Origin: Phoenix dactylifera
Lineage: Eukaryota > Streptophyta > Magnoliopsida > Arecales > Arecaceae
Length of the DNA stretch: 64,000 bases
Direction of reading: 5' to 3'
Assembly: GCF_009389715.1 (NCBI RefSeq)
Contig: NW_024068011.1
Location: forward strand, 186,001-250,000
The notes beneath the pieces were generated by a model. The model was not told the DNA's origin. It worked only from the letters and a program-made list of their open reading frames with translations, and did no database searches. Position numbers and translations under genes: made by a program. Positions 1 through 47,309 of the stretch are shown here, in pieces. The first letter of the stretch is position 1. Each line of letters starts with the position of its first letter.

Positions 1-175
1 CGAACTTGTTGTTTTACGAGCTCACAACGAACTCGGTCGGTTTTCCCAGGCTCACCGACTAGAACCAACCCCGATTGTTTTTCCGGGCTCACAATCAAAC
101 CCTTACACTCGTTGGTTTTAAACCGGCTCACCAACCAACCTTAATCCCCTTGATTCAATCCCCCGATTGAATCAA
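1..175. repeat. Array of five stem-loops with matching but different stems
   Basis: Four units spaced about 28-39 bp apart each hold a short inverted repeat around a similar loop: GTTG/CAAC (8-11 with 25-28), GTCGG/CCGAC (36-40 with 55-59), GATTG/CAATC (73-77 with 92-96) and GTTGG/CCAAC (111-115 with 131-135). The loops follow TTTT, about five variable bases, then GCTCA. A fifth hairpin (150-160 with 165-175) has an 11-bp perfect stem and a CCCC loop. The array may begin before the window. It is probably part of an LTR retrotransposon, judged only from its neighbourhood. Confidence 0.7.
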
Positions 176-590
176 GTAAATACACGAGATAGAAGAAAAC
201 AGAAAATAGCTTCTCAAAAAGCAGATTTAAAACAATATAATCGTAAAGGAGTTAGAAGCCCTCAAACGCTTTTAAGATGGTGAAGAGGTGTGGCTTCTGG
301 AACTCCGGTCTCCTCTTGAAAGAGTGATCGACTTGAAAGCAGGAGGAGGAAGCTTTGAATGCTGGAAAGATGTTGGTGGAGCAGTAAATGCAGATCTTCC
401 CTTTTTCTCGTTGAAGAGCACTTAGAGAGCTTGAAGACTTGAATGCTAGGAGTGGAATGTGTGTTCTCTACCTTGCTACAGTCTTCTGTGGCTATTTAAG
501 CCAACCCCCACGGAAACTAGCCGTTACTCTGCTTTTTCTGGCCGTTCTGCACACTCTGCGCAGCCTGACAATGTGACCGTTGGTGGGTTG

Positions 591-1416
591 GAGTCGACTC
601 GCGCGATCAGGAGTCGACTCGGCTGTAGCAGGAGTCGACTCGAGCTTTTCCGGAGTCGACTCGGCAACTGTTCCCAGTTTGAATTAAAGTTGCCGTCTTG
701 ACTGGGAGTCGACTCGTCTTGACCCGGAGTCGACTCGCCAACTTCTGGCGCTGACCTGGCAATTTTGGAGTCGGCTCATCCTCTGTAGTCCGTGGATCCA
801 AATTTGAATTTTGTCCACTCGAGTCGACTCGACTGTCCTGGGAGTCGACTCGAATCTCAGAGCCCGAACTCCCGATTCTCTGTCTTTTGGCTCATCCAGT
901 CTTGGAGTCGACTCGAACTTCCTTGGAGTCGACTCGGCTCTCAGTTTCCGAAAGTTGGTCTTCTGCCTTTTGACGTGAAGCTTGTCTTGGAGTCGACTCG
1001 AGCTGTCTGGGAGTCGACTCGAATCTCAGAGGCAGTAACATGGTCTTCTGTCTGTCGATGGTCGCACAGTCTCGGAGTCGACTCGCGTACTGCGGGAGTC
1101 GACTCGAATCTCAGAGTCCATAAAACGCTCTCTGACTTTTTCTTTGTGTACCGCTGGGAGTCGACTCGCGTTCCACTGGAGTCGACTCGAATCTCAGAGT
1201 CCATAAAACGCTCTCTGACTTTTTCTGTGTGTACCGCTGGGAGTCGACTCGCATTCCACTGGAGTCGACTCGAATCTCAGACCTGAAAAACTGCTCTTAT
1301 GTCCTTCTGTCTGTTTTCGGTCGGAGTCGACTCGTACTGATCAGGAGTCGACTCGAGCTCGTGCCAGTGACCTTGATACGCTTGGAGTCGACTCGTGAAA
1401 CTCGGGAGTCGACTCG
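591..1416. repeat. Array of 22 GAGTCGACTCG palindromes in 21-bp doublets
   Basis: The motif GAGTCGACTCG, whose first ten bases are a perfect palindrome with a SalI-type core, occurs 22 times: at 591, 611, 632, 653, 706, 727, 821, 842, 905, 926, 990, 1011, 1075, 1096, 1158, 1179, 1241, 1262, 1324, 1345, 1385 and 1406. Within a pair the spacing is 21 bp (once 20). From 821 to 1324 the pairs recur every 83-85 bp. A degenerate copy lies near 766. The two units around 1158 and 1241 are nearly identical, including the sequence between motifs. Open frames crossing this tract are by-products of the repeat. It probably belongs to an LTR retrotransposon. Confidence 0.85.
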
Positions 1417-1419
1417 TAT

Positions 1420-4400
1420 CTCAGACATTGGTTCATGCAGACTTCTTAACTTATCCAAAATGCTATGAACCAAGTCTAGAGACACTTGGACAGGATTTTC
1501 ACTGAAACACTCAATTGAATTCATTAGTAATCACAAGATATACTCAAATGCTTTGAGCTCATCAAAATCAAACGGAGTTTTAATCGATCACTCCACAGTT
1601 TCTAACGAAGGACCCACCAATGCCTAAGTCAGAATAGACAGGCAATAGAGTGGAAGAAAGAAGATTTCAGCAGAGTGTAGTACTCTATGTGAAATGAATA
1701 TCTTACCTGAGGTCTCCCAGGCCCCCCTTTATATCGGCGAGCCGGATTTGTCGTTATCTAAGCTAACGTGGCATGCACTAATAGCCAAGTAACGGCAGGT
1801 GGTGCGGCTGTAGTGTGGAATCAGTCTGTGTGGTTAGCATGTAGCATTGATCAGGTGCAGATTGTGGTGTTGCCACAACGACAGGCTGCGAGGGCTGTCG
1901 GTTGTTAGCATTATCAGTCATTGTTGACACATGTCATTTTAGACCAAATACTCGAGGTAACACGTCCCAAGTTTTAAATGTAGAACTAGGGCTCCAGCCT
2001 AGTTAGACCTCCATGCTTTCTTTCACCAGCTCCTTTGTCAAGCTTTCTAAAGTTACCTTTCCAAAGAACAATGGACCAAAAAATGCTATAACCATAGTTC
2101 AAGCCTGCTCTTTGCTCATACCTCCCATCCAACTACCGTCACTTGAGGTTCAAAGTTGGATGGCCAATAAAGCCCAATAAGTTTAATATGACCCACACAG
2201 CTCTTTGGATCTGGGTCTGTCTCGATAATGGCTTTTGGTGTGGTAAAAAAAGTGTAGGATCTGTTTTAAAGACAAGGTTGCTTGATGGAAGGGTCCAAAA
2301 TTAAAATTAATCCTAAGACTATGTCCTCCTCTCCATCCAGGATACCGTAGCCTATATAAACAGTTATTAGTAATTGTTTGCCTCATTGAAAGTTACTATA
2401 TAGAAATTGGAGAGGAGAAAATTTTTAGTCTAGATGCGTATACTCATTGATAGTAATTGTTCAGTTTATTTTCTTGACCGTGGTTACAAGCTGTCAACAA
2501 GATTTTATCAATAGCGGCCGACGATGAACAGTAAATTTTTCTATATATTTGTATGATTTTTTCGGTATTCTATTTGTCGGTACTGTGATTATAAATTTTT
2601 CTACAAAACTAACTTCTAATCTGTATGCCAAGTTTTTCTAAACTTTCTCCTCCGCTGATAAAGAAAGCACATAATTCTGGAATCCATTATATTTTTCTGA
2701 TAAGGCAACAGCCACATGGCCTTTTTAACAACGGACGGACATCAAAGGAGAGAGAACCCGGCAATCAAAACAACGACGGACAAACATCGAGGGACAGAAT
2801 GATCACCTCCCATGGAATTATCCAATGTCTAGTAGTATCCAGGGGAAACAATGAGATGAAGAGAAAGGGTAAGAAATATATTCTCATTATCAAAAAATTT
2901 TAACATTCAGTTGTTTGCACCAATTCCTTTTTGGTTAAACATTCATTATCAAATGCTAGCTCAATTTGAATTTATTCTCATTGTCCCTTTGATATCAGTT
3001 TTTTCTTAACATACATATTAAGTTCAGAAATCATATTCAAGTTATAGTATTATCTATAAAATTTTGCAAGATATTTATACACATTCCTAAACCTTATGAT
3101 AGTTTATGCTATATTAATCTCCAAGTTCAAAATTTTCAGTATTTTAATTCATGTTTACAAGCTTTATTATTTTTTATCTATTTCCTTATAGAGTTTTAAT
3201 CATCAAGAGCCAATAGTTGAAATATATTATTTATGCTTTGTTATTGATATTTAAGTTCAGATGAGGAGACAGGTTTTTTTTCTTTTAAATCCCATTACAA
3301 GGCCCCATTCCAAGCCACATACATGGAATGAATCTAGGAACACTAGCTGAAGCGGGATTGCACCATTTAACTCAATCTGTGCATTGCACACTCATGCCCA
3401 TACTTAAGAGTATGACCAAACTAAAGGCTCAAAGTCAACAATCATTCCTAGTTCATGCAAAACTTATTATTGGATATCCTAGCATCATAGTGATCGGGAT
3501 ATAGGACAAGCCTCATAGAGAGGTAAGGCCTTACCACCTAAACTATGGATTGGTTTAACAAAATTATATGCTCCTCAAGCCTCCTCCTGCCTCCCCCCTC
3601 TCTCTCACAAAGACAACCACTACAACAAAAGAGACAACATGGTTCCATCCCTGCATTACGGTATGGTACCAATGGGTGTATGGTGATGGTATCTTACCCG
3701 TATGATACTGTACAATCACCATAGAAGGAACCAGCATGGTACGGTACTTTAGTCCATATTGGATTCTATATTTAGCAAGACGTACCAGTTATCCTTAAGA
3801 GCATCAAAAGTTGAATCCCAAGCTAAATAAGATAAAAATAATATCATTCAGCATCTTGTTAAGACAAAAATGTATACATAGTTGTGAGCATGGCAAAACC
3901 TATAGGTGATCACATGTCGTGACAACCTACCTTCAGATCATCCTTTTCTAAGCTAACTATACTATTTAGCATGTATCTGTGGGCCTGCAAACTTTTCCTG
4001 CACCCACCACCGCTTGTGTTCCCATTCTATGCAACAAATTTTCAGGACTTCACAGTTGGTGGAGGCAGTTGACAGAAAATTAAGATATTCGAATTCTGGC
4101 AAAATGGAAAAAAGAAAAGGAAATAAAGGATTCCAAGAGGGGGGAGACCAAAACACAAAATTAAATTATCTAGGATTCCAGGTAGTAACTTGTTAATAAT
4201 ATATATAAAAGGCAAGTAACTATAATAGAACATCTTTTGAAAAAGTGGCGACTTTTCATTAATTGTGATTAAAACTATTTTCTTTAATCACTTCTTGATG
4301 CATGCTTTTGATAGAATTCAAATTCTACATTAGCAATTTCGATGGAAAATTCCATAAGTGTGAAAATTTGAAGAAGACAGATAAAATATATAAATATAAC

Positions 4401-9030: not shown

Positions 9031-12000
9031 TCATACCTTGACATGGATTAGGTGACATAACTTAATCATGTCCAAAGGTTGGGAGTTTGGTCGTGCCCCG
9101 ATGGTAGATAGCCGTTGAGATACATTTCGCATTGTTGGACGAGAATGCGGATTGTTATCCAAACACTGAAATGCTGTCATAACTACTACAACTAACTCAT
9201 TTGCAGCTTGAGTTGTAGGAGGTCGTAGTCGCGGGTCTAATATATCTTTTAGAAAGGTGTTTTCACCGACGGAAGAAGATAAAGTACAGATGAGATCTCC
9301 TGGATGCTTTCCCATTACAATCTCAAGTGCTACTACTCCAAAACTATATACATCACATTTCTCAGTAACCCTCATTGTGTATGCAAGCTCTGTAATAGAA
9401 TGGAAAAATATATAATCAAATTTTTATTGTCAACCACTTCTAATAGAGCTAGTTACGTTGATTTAATTAGCTGTAGAGTCCACTTGTAACTGCAACATAG
9501 GGTATCTGATTTAATGCAAAAAGTTCAGAGCATTCTCAATTGTGTCTGTCCCCCACAAAAGCAAGTCACCATGTAATCAATAGTTTACTATGCATTACAT
9601 AGTATAGTACAAATTATAGCTTTGAAAATGTAATAGCATTAAATGTTAAGCAAACATATCTTCATATCGACTTGGTCATATGAATGTCATGGAGAATAAC
9701 ATGTAATTAGCTAATCCTAATAAGAACAAGCAAGAAAAAAAAAACCTTTTTGAGGAAAAAAAATTACTATTTCTTCGAGGAGTACGGAAGTGTGTAATGC
9801 TGATAAGTTACCATGGTCATAGCTATGGTACCATTTTTTTCTAGAGAGATAAACCTAAAGATGCTCTTAACATATCTTAAACAATGTATTAAAAAATATA
9901 AACAAATTTGTAAGGCCATTATTTTTACGTTAGAAAAATGGAATTGCAGCATACCTGGGGCCAAATATCCTCGTGTGCCTGCAAGCATACTCCAATTAGA
10001 TGAATCAGGCTTTACAAGTCTAGCAATACCGAAGTCCGAAATACAAGCCTTGTATTCTAAATCAAGTAGAATATTATTACTTGTTATGTCTCGGTGCACT
10101 AATGGTGGAGCACAATCATGGTGCATGTATGATAGAGCATGAGCAATATGTTTTACAGCATCCACTCTCTTAGACCAATCCAATTTAGAGGCATTTTCAC
10201 TTCGGAGAATGTTTGCCAAGCTTCCTCTCTCCATATATTCACAAACAAGAAACTTATGTCGAGCACTGGAGCAAAAACCATAAAGCTTCACAATATTCCG
10301 ATGTTGGATCTGGGTCAGTGCCCGTATTTCATTCCAAAAAGTTTGCTTGCTTGGCAACTCTTCAATTTCTAATGGATGAAATTTCTTCACAGCTACCAAC
10401 TTGTCACTTGGCAGCAGTGCTTTGTAAACACTGGAAAATGCTCCAGTGCCAATGCAATACTTGGCATCAAAATTCTCTGTTGCTTGAATGATGCCATCGT
10501 ATGCGTCTTCTCCATTGAAGTTCGAAATAGAGAATCCACTTTCTTCAATACTTGCATCATTTCTCGTATATTTCTTCCTCCTCAGAATTTGCAGAGCAAA
10601 TACAACAAATAGAACTAAGAGACTAGGAACAATAATTAACAAGAGAAGTTTGTGGTGCTTATTTGAATCATCTTTGCTAGTTGTAAACAAGCCACATGAA
10701 GGCAAACCTTTCACTGCACCACACAAGCCCTTGTTGTGGCTGAACCCTTCCACTGAAACATTCTGGAAAATTTTGTTGTTGGGTAGTGGGCCTTCTAATT
10801 CATTGTATGATAAGTCTACAGATGACAAGCTCTTCATACCACTCAAAGAAGGCGGAACATGACCAGTCAGCTCATTGTGTGATAGATTCAGAACTTCTAG
10901 CTTATCCAGTTTGCCAAATTGTGGTGGTATCTCTCCAGTAAATGAGTTGTGGCTTAGATCGAGGAAGGCTTGCAGGTTTACTAGATTTCCAATTTGAAAG
11001 GGAATGCTTCCATTAAAATGATTGTTTCCAAGCTTCAGCGAATAAAGATTTATGCAGTTACCTAATTGTTCTGGTACCCTTCCCCTTAGTTGATTTGCTG
11101 ATAGATCAAGAATCTCCAAATTAGATAGTTCTCCAAATTCTGGATATACCTCTCCAACAAGTTGGTTGTTGCTCAAAGTCAAGTTATATAGATTAGTTAA
11201 CATGCTCAGATCCTTCGGCATCTCTCCTGATAGATAGTTTGAGGAAAGGTCAAGTTCTTGCAGTAGAGTCAACTTTCCAAGTTCTGCTGGTATGCTTCCT
11301 GTAACCTTGTTGTCAGAGATTCTTAAGAGCGACAAATTATGACATCCTCCCCAATTTGGTGAGAGCTTACCAGACAGCCTATTGAAGCTTAAATCGATGT
11401 ATGAGAGATGTGGATACACTCCAAGATTTTCAGATATATCCCCAGATAGTTGGTTCTGCTCAAGTCGGACTCTAACTAGGCTTGTACAGTTTTTCAAGCT
11501 TTTGGAAATCGGACCTTCAAAATGATTGTTATTCAAAGTGAGATGAAATAGAACTCCTCCTTTGCATATGTCATGTGGTAAATGGCCAGAAAAATTGTTG
11601 TTCGTCAAGTCGAGAAATTTCAAATTTGTAAAATTGTTAAATTCCTGAGGCAAAGAACCAGATAGTCGATTGTCGAATAAGCGCAAATCAGTAAGGTTGG
11701 TTAAGCTTCCAAAAGATGGAGGGATCGAGCCAGATATATGATTTTCAAAAAGGTACAAGATTTCAAGCTTAGTTAAATTTCCGATACTAGCAGGGATTGA
11801 ACCATCTAAAACGTTGTTATTGATTTCCAAATCTCTCAAGCTTACCAAGTTTCCTAATTCATGAGGAATTGATCCAGAGATCTGATTTTTAAAGAGGTAC
11901 AAGATTTCAAGCTTGGTTAAATTTTCGATACTAGCAGGGATTGAACCATCTAAAAGGTTGGTATTGATTTCCAAATCTCTCAAACTTACCAAGTTTCCTA

Positions 12001-13429
12001 ATTCAGGAGGAATTGATCTAGAGATCTGATTTTTAAAGAGGTACAAGATTTCAAGCTTGGTTAAATTTCCGATACTAGTAGGGATTGAACCATCTAAAAG
12101 GTTGGTATTGATTTCCAAATCTCTCAAGCTTACCAAGTTTCCAAATTCAGGAGGAATCGATCCAGAGATCTGATTTTTAAAGAGATACAAGATTTCAAGC
12201 TTGGTTAAATTTCCTATACTAGCAGGGATTGAACCATCTAAAAGGTTGGTATTGATTTCCAAATCTCTCAAGCTTACCAAGTTTCCTAATTCATGAGGAA
12301 TCGATCGAGAGATCTGATTTTTAAAGAAGTACAAGATTTCAAGCTTGGTTAAATTTCCTAAGCTGGTGGGGATGGAACCTGTTAAATTGTTTGCTGAGAG
12401 GTCTAGATTAGCTAACTCCATTAGATTTCCTATTTCATGAGGAATTGATCCCGAGAGATGATTGCCCCAAAGGTACATAATATTAAGCTTGGTTAAATTT
12501 CCTAAGCTGGTGGGGATGGAACCTGTTAAATTGTTTGTTGAGAGTTCTAGCATAGTTAACTCCGCTAGATTTCCTATTTCAGAAGGAATGGAGCCGAAGA
12601 GATGATTACCCCAAAGAAAGAACCAGTTAAGCTTGGTCCAGTTTCCCAAGCTAAGAGGGATGAAACCTGTCAGACTGTTATTACCCATGCCTAAATAAAC
12701 CAGGTTTATGAGATTCCCTAATTCGGGAGGCATGGAGCCAGATATCCCGTTGTGGGAGCAAAACAATAATTGAAGCCGGGTTAAATTTCCCAAAGTGGGA
12801 GGGATGGAACCTGTTATATGGTTGGTGTAGATTTTCAACTCCAAGAGATTCCCAAGCCTTCCTAATTCCTTAGGGATGGTACCTGAAAGGTTATTTTGGT
12901 ATAGGTATAAGAAGTTAAGCCTTGTCATATTACTTAGCCAAGGAGGGATGGAACCGCTTATCTGATTCTCACTAAGATTGAAAGAGTTGAGCTTTGTCAG
13001 AGAGCTGATCTGCAATGGAATTGTCCCTGCAAAGTTATTAGTGCAGAGATCAAGAGAGATGAGCTTCGAAAGAGCAGATATGGTGGGAGGGATGCTTCCA
13101 TAGAGCTGGTTGAACGTGAGGTTGAGACTGGTAAGTGATGATAGGAGGGAGAAGTTGAGAGCATTTAGCGTTCCTGCCAGACCCTTTTGGGCCAGATTCA
13201 CCTCCGTGATCACATGTCGGCCTCGACGTGTGACGTTGCATGAGATTCCAGTCCAGTTGCATGGACTAGTGTCGAGGTTCCAAGATTCAAGTGATCCTTG
13301 GCTCTGGAGGCTGACTTTCCACTGGAGGAGGGCCCTCCCTTGGGATGCAAGTGAAGCTGATGCCAAGGCAAGAAGAAATGAAAGGATTAGAAACAGAAGA
13401 AGGGTGGAGAGGAATTTTGGAGATGACAT
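9031..13429 (-). CDS. LRR receptor-like kinase, MIK2-like (LRR-XII/XI type), two exons
   Basis: The coding exons are 9955-13429 and 9031-9389. The donor CCAG|GTATG and acceptor TTACAG|AG rebuild GYLAPELAYTM and give about 1277 residues. The order is a signal peptide (about 1-28), an N-terminal LRR cap (about 29-95, with two CxxxxC-like cysteines), 33 tandem 24-residue LRRs (about 96-888), a transmembrane helix (928-946) and a kinase (about 991 onward). Lys1015 (AVKK), Glu1034, HRD1112-1114 and DFG1132-1134 are present. The third glycine of the P-loop is serine (GTGAFSSV). The family acts at the plasma membrane as pattern or peptide receptors; MIK2 itself senses SCOOP peptides and cell-wall damage in Arabidopsis, but the ligand here is unknown. 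LRRs 12-19 come from a recent internal amplification. A divergent pseudogene lies upstream. With 33 LRRs it is longer than the usual roughly 24-26. Confidence 0.93.
11777..12352 (-). repeat. 144-bp tandem repeat coding for LRR pairs 12-19
   Basis: Four near-identical 144-bp units each encode two LRRs (a [15 protein letters not shown] repeat followed by a [16 protein letters not shown] repeat). The marker GATTTCCAAATCTCTCAA on the plus strand sits at 11822, 11966, 12110 and 12254, exactly 144 bp apart. Flanking LRRs are much more diverged, so this is a recent in-frame expansion. Confidence 0.92.
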
Positions 13430-23048: not shown

Positions 23049-26000
23049 ATGCGTCCTAGCTTCTGCCAGAGCTGCCTCGCCTTTTTCCTGAAGTTTCTGA
23101 ATTACCTCCAGACCTTCGTCGGCGTCTCGCTCATTCTCTATTCGGTGTGGATGCTGAAGCACTGGCACCGACACGGTCACGGCGGCAGCGGCTTTAGTTT
23201 CGATTTTGACAAGCTTCCAGTTCCTTGGTATCCTTCCTCCCACTCCCATTTTTGGCAAAATTTCATGCTTCATTGGAACCAGCGGAACTTAAATCTTGGT
23301 TCCAAATTGTTTCTTTTTTTAATGTTATATGATAGACTTTTTGTGATTGATTCTTCTGATGAAGTGGTTTGATATAACTGGTACAGGTTGGTGTGCTCGT
23401 TGATGGGCATCGGGTTCTTGGTGTGTTTAATTGCTTTCACAGGGCATGTTGCTGCCGAGGCCATTAGTGGCTGTTGCCTCTGTTTCGTATCCTACTTATG
23501 AGTCTATCTCTCTCTCCACTTATTTTGCATCAAAACATTTTAGTATCATTCACTGTGCAGAACAATTCTGTGAGCAATTTTTCATCATGTAGCCGACTAG
23601 AGATTGGTAAGTGGTGACAGATGCTACTTAGGGCTTGACTTAAAGAAAAAGTTTTGTTATATAAGCAATGTGTTCTTTGTAATACTAAATCTTGGTGATC
23701 TTGAAATGCCAGTATGTGATGTTCATAGCCTAATTCTTAGGCCCTGTTTGGGGGAGCTTTTGGAGGGCCAGAAAGCACTTTCTGGCCCTCCAAAAGTACT
23801 TTTAGATGAAAAACTGTGTTTGGTAAATTTTTCAAAAAGCTGTTTCAGCTTTTGCGGGAAGCTGAAAACAGCTTTTGGGAGGAAGCTCCAATTTGGAGCT
23901 TTTGGGAGGAAGCTGTTTCAGCTTTTTCGGAAAGCTGTATTTTTGACAAAAATGCCCATATTAAAATAACATAATTACATAGTTTGTCCCTTTATAAACC
24001 TAAAAATCTGTTGGAGCCAAGAACCCTAGCCGTCAGACTCCCTTCCGTAAGAAAAGATATTTTTCTTTTCAATTTTTGTATGCATCTCTTAAACCATATT
24101 TTAGAAGAAAAAAATTTTAATCATTTTCCATACCTTCCAAAATCAATCTATTGTTTTTTTTTTTTATCATCAACCTCGCGGCCCATGCTGAGGTCCTCCT
24201 CGAGCGTGGACCACGAAGAAGAGCCCCTGGACCGCGGAAAATTATTTTATGGGAAATTATTTTATACTAATAATTATAATATTTTATACCTTTATTTTTG
24301 TATTATACTATAAATATAATATCATATTATATTATATCATAATACATTAATATGTTATGTTAAATAATTTAATATTATGTTATATTATGAAAAATTAATT
24401 TATACTAATAATTATAATATTTTATACCTTTATTTTTGTATTATACTATAAATATAATATCATATTATATTATATCATAATACATTAATATGTTATTTTA
24501 AATAATTGAATATTATGTTATATTATGAAAAATTAATTTATAATAATAATTATAATATTTTATACCTTTATTATTGTATTATACTATAAATATTGTATTA
24601 TATTACATTACAGTATAATACATTAATATGTTATTTTAAATAATTTAATATTATGTTATATTATGAGAAATTAATTTATATTAATAATTATAATATTTTA
24701 TACTTTTATTATTGTATTATACTATAAATATAATATATATTACATTATATCATAATACATTAATATGTTATGTTAAATAATTTAATATTATGTTATATTA
24801 CCAAATATTAATTTACTCTAATAATTATATTACTATTATGCTATATTAACATAATATTATTTTATATTACAATAATATTATACTATATCGTATATTTATG
24901 TATTAATTTATGTTATGTTTTATTATGTTCTGTTGTATAATACTATGCAATGTCCTTTATGGTAATTTTGTCATACAAAAATACTTTCTCAGTTTGTTTA
25001 CCAAACACAAAACAAAGTACCACAGCACTTTACGAATGTAGTTACCAAACAGCAAACAGCTTTTTATAACAGCTCTACTTCAGACAGCTCTACTTCCAAC
25101 AGCTCTACTGCCAACAGCTCCCCCAAACAGGGCCTTAGCAACTGGCCTATGTGGAGAAAAACAAAAATACTGAATTTACTATTTTGTTCCTTTTCTTGGT
25201 TTATTTGGTGTCGGCAGAATGTTCTTGCAAGTATGCTCTGACATTTTTATGCCATCTTTTCATCATCTACTTTGTTCTCTTAGTTTAGTTTAGGTACATC
25301 TTTGATCATCTATCCTCTTGTGAATCTCCAATTCATGCTATCTACATTTTTTTCACTTATATTCACGATTGTTCTGTAACAAAATTATGGTAACATGTAA
25401 GCTGTTTACTGAAGGACATGTCTGAACTAGCATATAGATTTAATTGTTCAAATACATTCTTTAATTTTGTCTAAAGTGGCTTGGTGCCGAACAAAAAAAC
25501 AGAGAAGGTATTCTGAATTACTTAAATATAAAAAAGAGCAAAAAATATCAATATAAGCCTTTGAAAATCTGCTGAAGTTAAGAAAAAAACATGCAACAAA
25601 AGAAAAAAATGCAAGGCAAGTTTGACTACAGAATTTTTAAAGAGAAACTGCATACTCACAAAATTAGATCATAAATGCAGATCCTTGCAATGCCTTGACA
25701 AGCTTTTAATTATTGGTGAAGGTGATGGTGAACAAAAAAAATGAAAAGAAGTTGCACCCTAATTATTACCATACTAAAATGTTTCAGTTGCTAATATAAA
25801 TAAAACCTCCTCCTTTAGTCCAAGCGCAAATATTTGAGGGCACGAGCATGATATCACTTGGCGCTATATATTTTAATCATCCTAATGAAATTCTAAGCAT
25901 TAACAATCTATCATCCAAGTTCATCGCTTTTCTGATAAATTGCAGCACACCTGGTTAAAATTATCTTGCTGACCATGCTTCTGACAGTTGACGTGTATGA

Positions 26001-44790: not shown

Positions 44791-45611
44791 AATTGCAATC
44801 GGCTCTACTCATTAAAAAGAATTGATGTCCTCGTCAGGAAGCATCCCGGTCGACCCGTGGTCAGTCCCAATCCATATTGTAGTATCTCCTAATCTACATA
44901 GGTTATGGGTCAAATCTACTTTGATATCATTTATAACAATCTAAAATCTCATCCAAAAAGATAGCGATAAACTGTTATTTAGATTTTTTGATTCTGCCAA
45001 AGATCTACCCAGAATAACCGATGTGGGACTAAACAGACGTTCCGGGTCCTCGCGGGAGAAGAATTGGAATTCATGGACGCAGGCAGCGTGGCACGATCCA
45101 TTGTTGTTTCACGCGGGTAGCACGAGGTTGCCACTGGAGACCACCTCTGGTCCCCCAAGGTCAGTCCTTTTTCGCCCAATGAAACGCTTCTCTGCTCTTC
45201 TTTTGATTGAAATTGGATTAAATCTATTATTTTTTGTTCCTATCTGGTTGTTCTTTGTTGCAGGTTGGATTGGGTTTAATTTTAAAATCATGGAATTTCG
45301 CTTGACTAGCATTTATATGTTTACTGTATGAAACTTTGATTTACAGGGGATTTGGGATCGAGGTTTTCTGTATTGTATGGAAGTAGAACATCTTCATTTT
45401 GTGTAATTGGCTAAAATTGGATGCAAAGGTTTTGATTGTGATGTTAGTTGGTGAATTTTTAGGTTGTATGCTGTGGAGATTTGGTTTGTCGATTCCTTTC
45501 CCCTTTATTTGGTTGAAATCATGGGTTCAATTTGGAACCTGCGAGGAATCCGTGAGTTGTAAAAAAGTTTGTACTGACATAGAAGCTGCCTAGTATTGCT
45601 CATACGAATTA
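44791..45611. other. Interval with a possible LTR remnant and a GC-rich, exon-like block
   Basis: CCGATGTGGGACT (about 45018) is the reverse complement of the AGTCCCACATCGG motif found in the TRIM LTRs, so an old minus-strand relative may lie here. The block 45030-45160 is GC-richer and ends AAG|GTCAGT like a first exon. I cannot recognise any protein. Confidence 0.3.
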
Positions 45612-47309
45612 GGCCCTGTTTGGGGGAGCTGTTGGCAGTAGAGCTGTTGGAAGTAGAGCTGTCTGAAGTAGAGCTGTTATAAAAAGCTGTTTGCTGTTTA
45701 GTAACTACATTCGTCAAGTGCTATGGTAATTTGTTTTGTGTTTTGGTAAACAAACTGAGAAAGTACTTTTGTATGACAAAATTACCATAAAGGACATTGC
45801 ATAGTATTATACAACAGAACATAATAAAACATAACATATATTAGTACATAAATATACGATATAGTATAATATTATTGTAATATAAAATAATATTATTATA
45901 ATATAGCATAATAGTAATATAATTATTAGAGTAAATTAATATTTGGTAATATAACATAATATTAAATTATTTAACATAACATATTAATGTATTATGATAT
46001 AATGTAATATATATTATATTTATAGTATAATACAATAGTAAAGGTATAAAATATTATAATTATTAGTATAAATTAATTTTCATAATCTAACATAATATTA
46101 AATTATTTAAAATAACATATTAATGTATTATAATGTAATGTAATATAATATAATATTTATAGTATAATACAATAATAAAGGTATAAAATATTATAATTAT
46201 TAGTGTAAATAATTAATAATATTGAAATATACTTATTTATTCATTCATTCATTCATTTATATAAATATTTATTTATTTATTTATTTATTATTTTTTAAAT
46301 TTTCTTTTCTTCTCTTTTTCTTTCTTTTTCTTCTTTTTTTTCCTTTTCTTTTTCTTCTTTTTTTTCCTTTTTTTTCTTTTCTTTTTTTCTTCTCTTCTTC
46401 TCCTTCCTTCATCTCCCCCGTTCTTCTTTCTTCTCCTCCCACGCGGCCGGCGGCGCCGGAAGGGGGCTAGGCCGCCGCGGCCGTGGGAGGGGGCCGGGCC
46501 GTGGCCGGCGGCGCCCGCGGCAGTCTCGGCGGCCGCGGCTGGCCCCGTAAGAAGTGCCCTCCTCCCGCGAGGCCGTCAGCGCCGAGCCTGGCCGTGGCGG
46601 ATGCGGAAGGGGGGCGGGGTCATGACCGCCGGCGGCCGTAGGAACCCCCTTATTCTTCCCTGTTCTTCGGCCCCCTCCCCACCGTGAGACCTCCTTCTTC
46701 TTCGGCCCCCTTCTTCTTCCTGTTCTTCGGCACCGCCCCTTTTCATGACGAGTCGTCGCCGGCGGTGGCCGCGGGAAGGGGAAGACGACCTGTCTTCCTC
46801 TTCTTCGGCACCTCCCCACCATGGGGGCGGGGGAGAGGGAGGGGGTGCGACGGCGGGGCAGAGGGAGAGGGTGCAGCGGCGGGGGAGAGGGAGTGGGGTT
46901 GGGTGGGAGAGGAAGAGACGGTGAGAGAGAGGTTTTTGGGAGGAAATTTTTTTTAAATGGGGGTATTTTGGTTAAAAATACAGCTTTCCGAAAAAGCTGA
47001 AAACAACATTTTTGGAAAGCTCCAATTTTTGGGAAGCTCCAATTCAGGTTTTTGGGAGGAAATTTTTTTAAATGGAGGTATTTTGGTTAAAAATACAGCT
47101 TTCCGAAAAAGCTGAAAACAACATTTTTGGAAAGCTCCAATTTTTGGAAAGCTCCAAATTGGAGCTTCCCCCCAAAAGCTATTTTCAGCTTCCCGCAAAA
47201 GCTGAAACAGTTTTTCGGAAAATTTACCAGACACTCTTTTTTAGCTAAAAGTATTTTTGGAGGGCCAGAAAGTGCTTTTTGACCCTCCAAAAGCTCCCCA
47301 AACAGGGCC
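45612..47309. mobile_element. Tourist/PIF-Harbinger-like element, copy B, inverted and enlarged
   Basis: It has the same ends (GGCCCTGTTTGGGGGAGCT; right end ...CCCCAAACAGGGCC) and the same TTA duplication (45609-45611 and 47310-47312) as copy A, but the inside is in the opposite orientation. The left part is the AT-rich tandem core with about two units (45960-46210). It also has a pyrimidine tract (46290-46435), a very GC-rich block (46436-46925) and a 116-bp tandem duplication (46931-47046 and 47047-47162). The right end keeps a weakened form of the subterminal hairpin. No transposase frame is present. Confidence 0.87.
46436..46925. other. GC-rich insert within Harbinger-like copy B
   Basis: About 490 bp of CGGCGGC- and CTTCTTCGGCCCC-type sequence is absent from copy A and differs sharply in base composition from the AT-rich core next to it. 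It may be a captured genomic fragment, such as a 5' gene end, or a simple-sequence expansion. Open frames on both strands are low complexity and I do not call a gene. Confidence 0.5.

Follow-up and report, generated by a model that had tools for sequence, protein, structure and literature searches.

Why would a series of small hairpins have stems of different sequence that still pair, around loops that are alike? This question is raised by the first 176 nucleotides of the DNA analysed here, a stretch of 64,000 nucleotides (C364:186001-250000) which we call the window and which comes from a plant, judging from the genes in it. The array, whose sense strand is the minus strand, is made up of four small hairpins plus a perfect hairpin of 12 bp:

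8..28, minus strand: unit U1, GTTGU-GAGCUCGUAAA-ACAAC, from the sequence
36..59, minus strand: unit U2, GTCGGU-GAGCCUGGGAAA-ACCGAC, from the sequence
73..96, minus strand: unit U3, GATTGU-GAGCCCGGAAAA-ACAATC, from the sequence
111..135, minus strand: unit U4, GTTGGU-GAGCCGGUUUAAA-ACCAAC, from the sequence
149..176, minus strand: perfect 12-bp hairpin with the sense-strand loop GGGG, from the sequence and the family comparison

The first-pass annotation had described four of these stems (GTTG/CAAC, GTCGG/CCGAC, GATTG/CAATC and GTTGG/CCAAC), and all four are present, in U1 to U4 respectively; the fifth hairpin, for which an 11-bp stem had been given, actually has 12 bp. The TTTT and GCTCA that it found in all four loops are indeed shared, and on the sense strand they also give the closing U-A pair. 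Each unit follows on that strand the pattern arm-U-GAGC(C/T)...AAA-A-arm', with a constant closing U-A pair, stems of 5-6 bp and loops of 11-13 nt.

Regarding the pairing within this copy, six pairs in each of the four units give 24 cells, of which 23 are Watson-Crick and one is C.A, and a two-sided change is seen at three of the pairs. Further out, the next three pairs contain 2 Watson-Crick and 7 G.U cells out of 12. The true pairing of arms was the best of 24 pairings and its score was reached by 162 of 200,000 column shuffles. Other places in the window with TTTT-N0-10-GCTCA have at most one flanking pair at the same offset. Bare hairpins, counted without the loop anchor, are modestly unusual: their number was reached by 24 of 3000 shuffles for 4-bp stems and by 5 of 3000 for 5-bp stems, and by 78 and 32 of 1064 window slides, respectively. 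No Rfam 15 family reached its gathering score in the window or in the loci L268, which holds the window element, and L385. The array is cut by the window edge, and a further unit is found directly outside. In the same copy, two more possible hairpins precede the primer binding site (PBS), namely CTGTAA...TTATAG and GTGG-ACGTA-inner stem-GAA-CCAC.

In order to know what carries the array, we examined its neighbourhood, where the following features were found:

1..1607, minus strand: 5' LTR of a Sirevirus-type Ty1/copia element, recognised by RM palindromes and a TATA-like box, with the polyC signal, PBS junction and gag downstream; its start, judged from the sequence, is probably near 1607
491..500 (about), minus strand: TATA-like box (sense CTTAAATAGC), from the sequence and placed as in PMC2829016
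590..1416, no strand assigned: GGAGTCGACTCG, an LTR palindrome present in 21 exact copies and a Sirevirus-like repeated motif (RM), from a sequence count

The LTR reaches its 3' end at C364:185711, which is 290 bases ahead of position 1; the PBS too falls outside the window. Following the sense strand past the array, one more unit, a C-rich tract, the PBS junction and a gag frame come in this order. According to the part of PMC2829016 available to us, the 5' LTR end and PBS of Sireviruses form the junction CA/A(T or G)TGG/TATCAGAGC; the window element has CA/AGTGG/TATCAGAGC just outside the window, and the polyC-rich integrase signal ACCCCCCCCTCTTGGG, another Sirevirus character of that source, is found shortly before the LTR end. 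The same source describes palindromic RM boxes that occur in high copy number before the TATA box, which are present, and a CpG island at the RM cluster, with which the simple CpG observed/expected ratio agrees (1.2 at 580-1430 and 0.56 in the whole window). This ratio shows depletion at 200-580 (0.52) and is 1.25 at 1-200, where the array lies. The CGG-CCG core that it gives for Sirevirus RMs is absent from GGAGTCGACTCG; it is likewise absent from Tnd-1 (Table 3 of that paper), and some Sireviruses have no RM. Furthermore, Retrotran_gag_2, gag_pre-integrs, rve and RVT_2 were matched on unjoined pieces of L268 and L307, that is, a copia gag and an integrase placed before a copia-type reverse transcriptase, which is the Ty1/copia arrangement. 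Because the neighbours of the array are Sirevirus LTR hallmarks together with copia gag, integrase and reverse transcriptase, we place it in the 5' LTR, within its R-U5 half. The suspicion that it belongs to a retroelement has therefore held.

Some other observations were made around this element. Ten protein frames of the window were scanned in search of the host element, and what they matched (LRR kinase, DUF3741, DUF4378, RNase H-like) is not part of it. Downstream of the reverse transcriptase frame, a frame of 537 aa at L307:539-2152 (minus strand) matches PF20167, a putative plant transposon protein, and sits where Sireviruses may carry an envelope-like gene. At 11718-12670 the window contains 144-base tandem repeats within a 1220-aa LRR receptor kinase-like frame. 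An inverted pair of 606 bases with 96.7% identity, partly an AT-rich tandem repeat, is found at 24531-25135 and 45611-46214, and may represent the arms of a larger element.

The LTR itself offers one explanation for the hairpins, namely palindromes acting as DNA to control transcription or methylation, like the RM boxes with which they share the LTR. The 21 RM palindromes point in this direction, as does the CpG ratio, which is as high in the array as in the RM region, and the RM boxes of Sireviruses have palindromic sequences that are not the same from one element to the next (PMC2829016, Table 3, from the part available). However, the 21 RM copies are identical, whereas the arms of the array vary and its loop ends are constant. 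Furthermore, the array is situated about 315 nt downstream of the TATA-like box, and a protein-binding site would be expected to conserve its arms from unit to unit. We therefore regard this explanation as very unlikely.

The array is not limited to the window. The genome searched has 773 Mb. Positions 1-185 gave 1985 first-look candidates in it, and 36 of the 40 with the best scores, the window's own among them, match all 185 bases with 100% identity; the family has therefore been recently active. Anchors (TGAGC...A-run) were picked irrespective of pairing within 420 nt upstream of a landmark in U5. In 71 loci, 299 of 321 anchored units pair over four positions, compared with 0 of 195 for anchors in other parts of these loci; this count is uncollapsed and includes 30 near-identical copies from the genome match search, and the window array twice (L268 and L329). 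The claim that the stems differ and the pairing is kept is borne out. For the later comparisons identical arrays were collapsed, leaving 82 distinct arrays with 307 units. Set A holds mostly arrays of C1 and the window family, plus a few of other families (e.g. L261, L269, L278, L308), and set B, which is older, includes three A-like arrays (L366, L370, L371). The duplicates L300-L305 and L329 were left out, as were L306 and L307 (no array), L378 (overlapping L366) and L359 (no units). In set A, 181 of 207 units have nothing but Watson-Crick or G.U at all five pairs, as do 66 of 100 units in set B; strictly Watson-Crick over the five pairs are 170 and 19 units, respectively. A third set, mostly of family C, showed five Watson-Crick pairs at 67 of 76 anchors; it was drawn from 24 loci, of which L274 and L275, lacking the exact landmark, gave no units and L269 gave one array per family.

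Genome-wide counts of exact patterns at stem position 3 were 25,153 for T-A, 9,699 for C-G, 219 for G.U and 133 for C.A, with 0 for the reversed-pattern controls. One-sided hybrids therefore amount to 352 of 35,204, a figure in which the copies are related, many of them are young and the events are not independent. This scarcity speaks, with the same reservation, against a frozen history, by which we mean an ancient array copied with its units already diverged, whose pairing would reflect shared descent plus neutral decay. The number of anchored units also varies, from 1 to 8 per sampled copy, which speaks for template switching: in reverse transcription or replication, one arm would be copied onto its partner, so that a stem changes on both sides at once and stays perfect without any selection. 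This mechanism has been described for RNA genes (PMC8794818, as far as the accessible text goes).

Both of these explanations have to be weighed at hairpins that can be matched between copies. Three of them differ on both sides between subfamilies. Pair 4 of the last unit before the U5 landmark was scored in 68 distinct copies, of which 45 have G-C, 22 have A-T and 1 has G.T; two arrays 3.5% apart (L366 and L370) have G-C and A-T there. The second is the U5 hairpin, GTGG-AYGTA-GG(A/T)GC...GC(T/A)CC-GAA-CCAC, whose inner pair 3 is T-A in 44, A-T in 25 and C.A in 1 of 70 copies, and whose pair 5 is C-G in 60, T-A in 6, T.G in 3 and T.T in 1. The outer stem GTGG/CCAC was found in 66 of the 70 copies and the internal loop (ACGTA/GAA or ATGTA/GAA) in 65, the copies having been selected for likeness to these parts. 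The differences at pair 4 of the last unit and at pair 3 of the U5 hairpin partition the families differently. The window element has a one-sided G.U form of the inner stem (GGAGC/GCTTC). The third is the long hairpin upstream of the units, which is perfect as CTTGATTCAATC-N4-GATTGAATCAAG in 37 of 62 rows of set A and as TTGTTGAATC-N4-GATTCAACAA in 19 of 38 rows of set B. Long hairpins were picked by best pairing; scored by alignment column, which dropped 2 of the 62 A rows for gaps, the 12-bp hairpins of A and B differ on both sides at three pairs. The two hairpins probably correspond, considering their position and shared inner bases.

The U5 hairpin (GTGG-AYGTA-inner stem-GAA-CCAC) is an observation in its own right: it lies between the array and the PBS, at L268:3895-3928 on the minus strand and at C1 places. 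Its landmark has 10,320 exact copies genome-wide against 0 of the reversed pattern, and the inner stems GGAGC/GCTCC and GGTGC/GCACC are both among the matches listed. Counted over the genome, the four forms of the inner stem together number 9,413 and GGAGC/GCTCC numbers 5,879.

These matched differences, although each of them may be one single event, count against a frozen array. As regards template switching, they speak for it where no single G.U step would bridge them (T-A to A-T, C-G to G-C). Against it stands the stem found most often in set B, with 13 of 100 units: this is the wobble form GTTGG/CCGAC, as expected of a stepwise intermediate.

The rates of change add to this picture. On 41 minimum-spanning edges below 3%, all 7 arm changes were one-sided, which counts against template switching and is what neutral decay of dead copies would give. 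Over 97 edges, 5 double changes led from Watson-Crick to Watson-Crick and 9 were of other kinds, and in 40 cases a one-sided change turned a Watson-Crick pair into one of the other mismatches. Nevertheless, the arms are slower than control sites, yet not frozen, in all three classes of rising divergence (0.0036 and 0.0073, 0.048 and 0.096, 0.129 and 0.161 for arms and controls, respectively), which a frozen history does not explain. One-sided changes on the sense strand gave 78 G.U against 34 A.C in a raw count. In the trees of set B this lean was 18:7 on internal branches (p 0.04) and 28:13 on tips (p 0.03), or 27:13 with another root (p 0.07); in those of set A it was 14:8 on tips, which is not significant, and 0:1 on internal branches. 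The cells of the long hairpin gave 22:6 in set A and 10:9 in set B. Neither a G.U lean nor slower arms are predicted by template switching, which we consider unlikely as the whole explanation.

A tree-based null, which scatters the same substitutions, gave no excess of pairing in set B, since 238 of 400 simulations reached the observed value for pairs 1-4 and 275 of 400 for pairs 1-5. The pairing of set A exceeds all 400 simulations, but its columns mix unit types. On the internal branches of set A, changes per site were 0.57 in arms, 0.50 in loop ends, 1.02 and 2.71 in the flanks, 1.29 in spacers and 1.27 in the long 12-bp hairpin, which is no slower than flank3. Only 2 arm columns of set B passed the filter, with 2.0 changes per site, above the B flanks. 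The null result and these two columns, which are not slow, agree with a frozen history, as do the small number of position-matched double changes and the one-sided decay of the closest copies. Taking into account the slower arms and the matched differences, we nevertheless hold it to be quite unlikely.

The idea of a constant loop on a free stem can now be divided. The loop ends are constant indeed; the stems are not free, because array positions keep their own stems, which are common to most sampled copies of the family, and in copies less than 10% apart the arms evolve roughly half as fast as the flanks. The first-pass annotation had also named the pattern that would speak against it, stems mutating on one side only at the rate of the flanks. 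The outcome is mixed. The closest copies do show changes on one side only (7 one-sided and 0 two-sided changes), but the arm rate is below that of the flanks, there is a mild G.U lean, and two-sided differences separate subfamilies at matched hairpins.

When the naked sense RNA of the window copy is folded, pairing between units wins over the four small hairpins, whose mean pair probability stays below 0.01 in 1-200; U2 reaches 0.17 in 1-470. The five local hairpins give -29.8 kcal/mol, compared with -63.2 kcal/mol for the minimum free energy structure, and the fold z-score is -1.93 once the 12-bp hairpin is removed. Of the local array pairs of set A, RNAalifold kept 6 of 30, and 0 of 30 when the span was limited to 60 nt; for set B it kept 12 of 24 and, under the same limit, 6 of 24. 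The set B structure, with no span limit, consists of five consecutive local hairpins with loops of 11-12 nt; 2 of the 5 helices match the anchor-defined pairs and 3 of the 5 survive the 60-nt limit. Hairpins of this kind could also be a source of small RNAs, seen by the host in silencing and of no use to the element, and in the copia LTRs of maize the hairpin regions are richer in small RNAs (PMC10760457, in the part of it available). This would leave the constant loop ends and the slower arms unexplained, and we find it highly improbable.

We therefore prefer to see the array as a structured RNA element that belongs to the leader (R-U5) of a Sirevirus-type retrotransposon, perhaps read by Gag or used in reverse transcription, a reading that we judge to be probable by a narrow measure. 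The array would be transcribed and would fold in the cell, and a variable number of small hairpins would present similar GAGC...AAA loops on paired stems specific to their positions. The loop would be the recognised part and the stem its support, and selection during replication would preserve pairing as well as loop ends. Being repeated, the loops would most likely make up a multivalent docking site for the element's own Gag/nucleocapsid in packaging. Alternatively, the array may help strand transfer, which we propose because part of it may lie in R. Template switching may supply the double changes, and selection would explain the constant loop ends and the slower arms. A kissing loop through GAGCUC in U1 was considered as a candidate. 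Another candidate idea that we considered is that GAGCC loops may pair to the initiator tRNA.

A broader proposal, which we put forward tentatively and hold to be possible rather than probable, is that Sireviruses carry a modular hairpin array, variable in copy number and with conserved loop ends, together with a bipartite U5 hairpin made of a steady outer stem, an internal loop and a flipping inner stem. Both would form one multivalent leader signal for Gag or reverse transcription, which would evolve as whole hairpin modules are gained and lost and as stems change on both sides. If true, plant retroelements would have a class of RNA signal that has not been described before; a structured retroelement leader is an already known kind, of which the hairpin array would be a variant. 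To our knowledge, little is known about how the RNA of plant LTR retrotransposons is picked out to be packaged and reverse-transcribed. The hairpin signal recurs, can be counted and has thousands of natural variants within a single genome, in families with recent copies among them, which makes this choice directly testable and allows selection on RNA structure to be told apart from template-switch mutation.

We also looked for relatives elsewhere. Going by titles and the openings of abstracts, no report of such an array was found in the literature. No relative was found in IMG/VR and GTDB contigs, where 257 loci were checked for three clustered GAG...AA hairpins. Two loci with a similar hairpin (L258 and L259) were discarded, their sequence being read as phage. 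A locus filed under a Trichormus MAG (L257) has by reading a copia-like element and a PBS junction, and the hairpin script found no array in it. Copia-like sequence with a Sirevirus-like PBS junction is thus present in a Trichormus-filed MAG (L249 and L257), and it is perhaps fern-host DNA in the bin.

Retroviruses and Ty1 carry packaging and dimerisation hairpins in their 5' leaders. The array resembles these leaders in having several hairpins between the transcription start and gag. It differs in that one kind of hairpin with similar loops is repeated, 1 to 8 times as anchored units per sampled copy. The barley element BARE (PMC3735527, seen in part) is a plant LTR element for which dimerisation and packaging signals are mentioned; the text available gives no hairpin array. 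The hairpins produced by template switching (PMC8794818, likewise in part) share the perfect stems and the predicted two-sided changes; however, they represent a mutation mechanism and not a functional element. Finally, the array and the Sirevirus RM boxes are both clustered symmetric motifs of Sirevirus LTRs, and the window LTR has both. The part of PMC2829016 available to us contains no mention of hairpins of the array type, and it describes RM boxes as one repeated sequence lying mainly upstream of the TATA box, whereas the hairpins of the array lie downstream of it and combine constant loop ends with differing stems.
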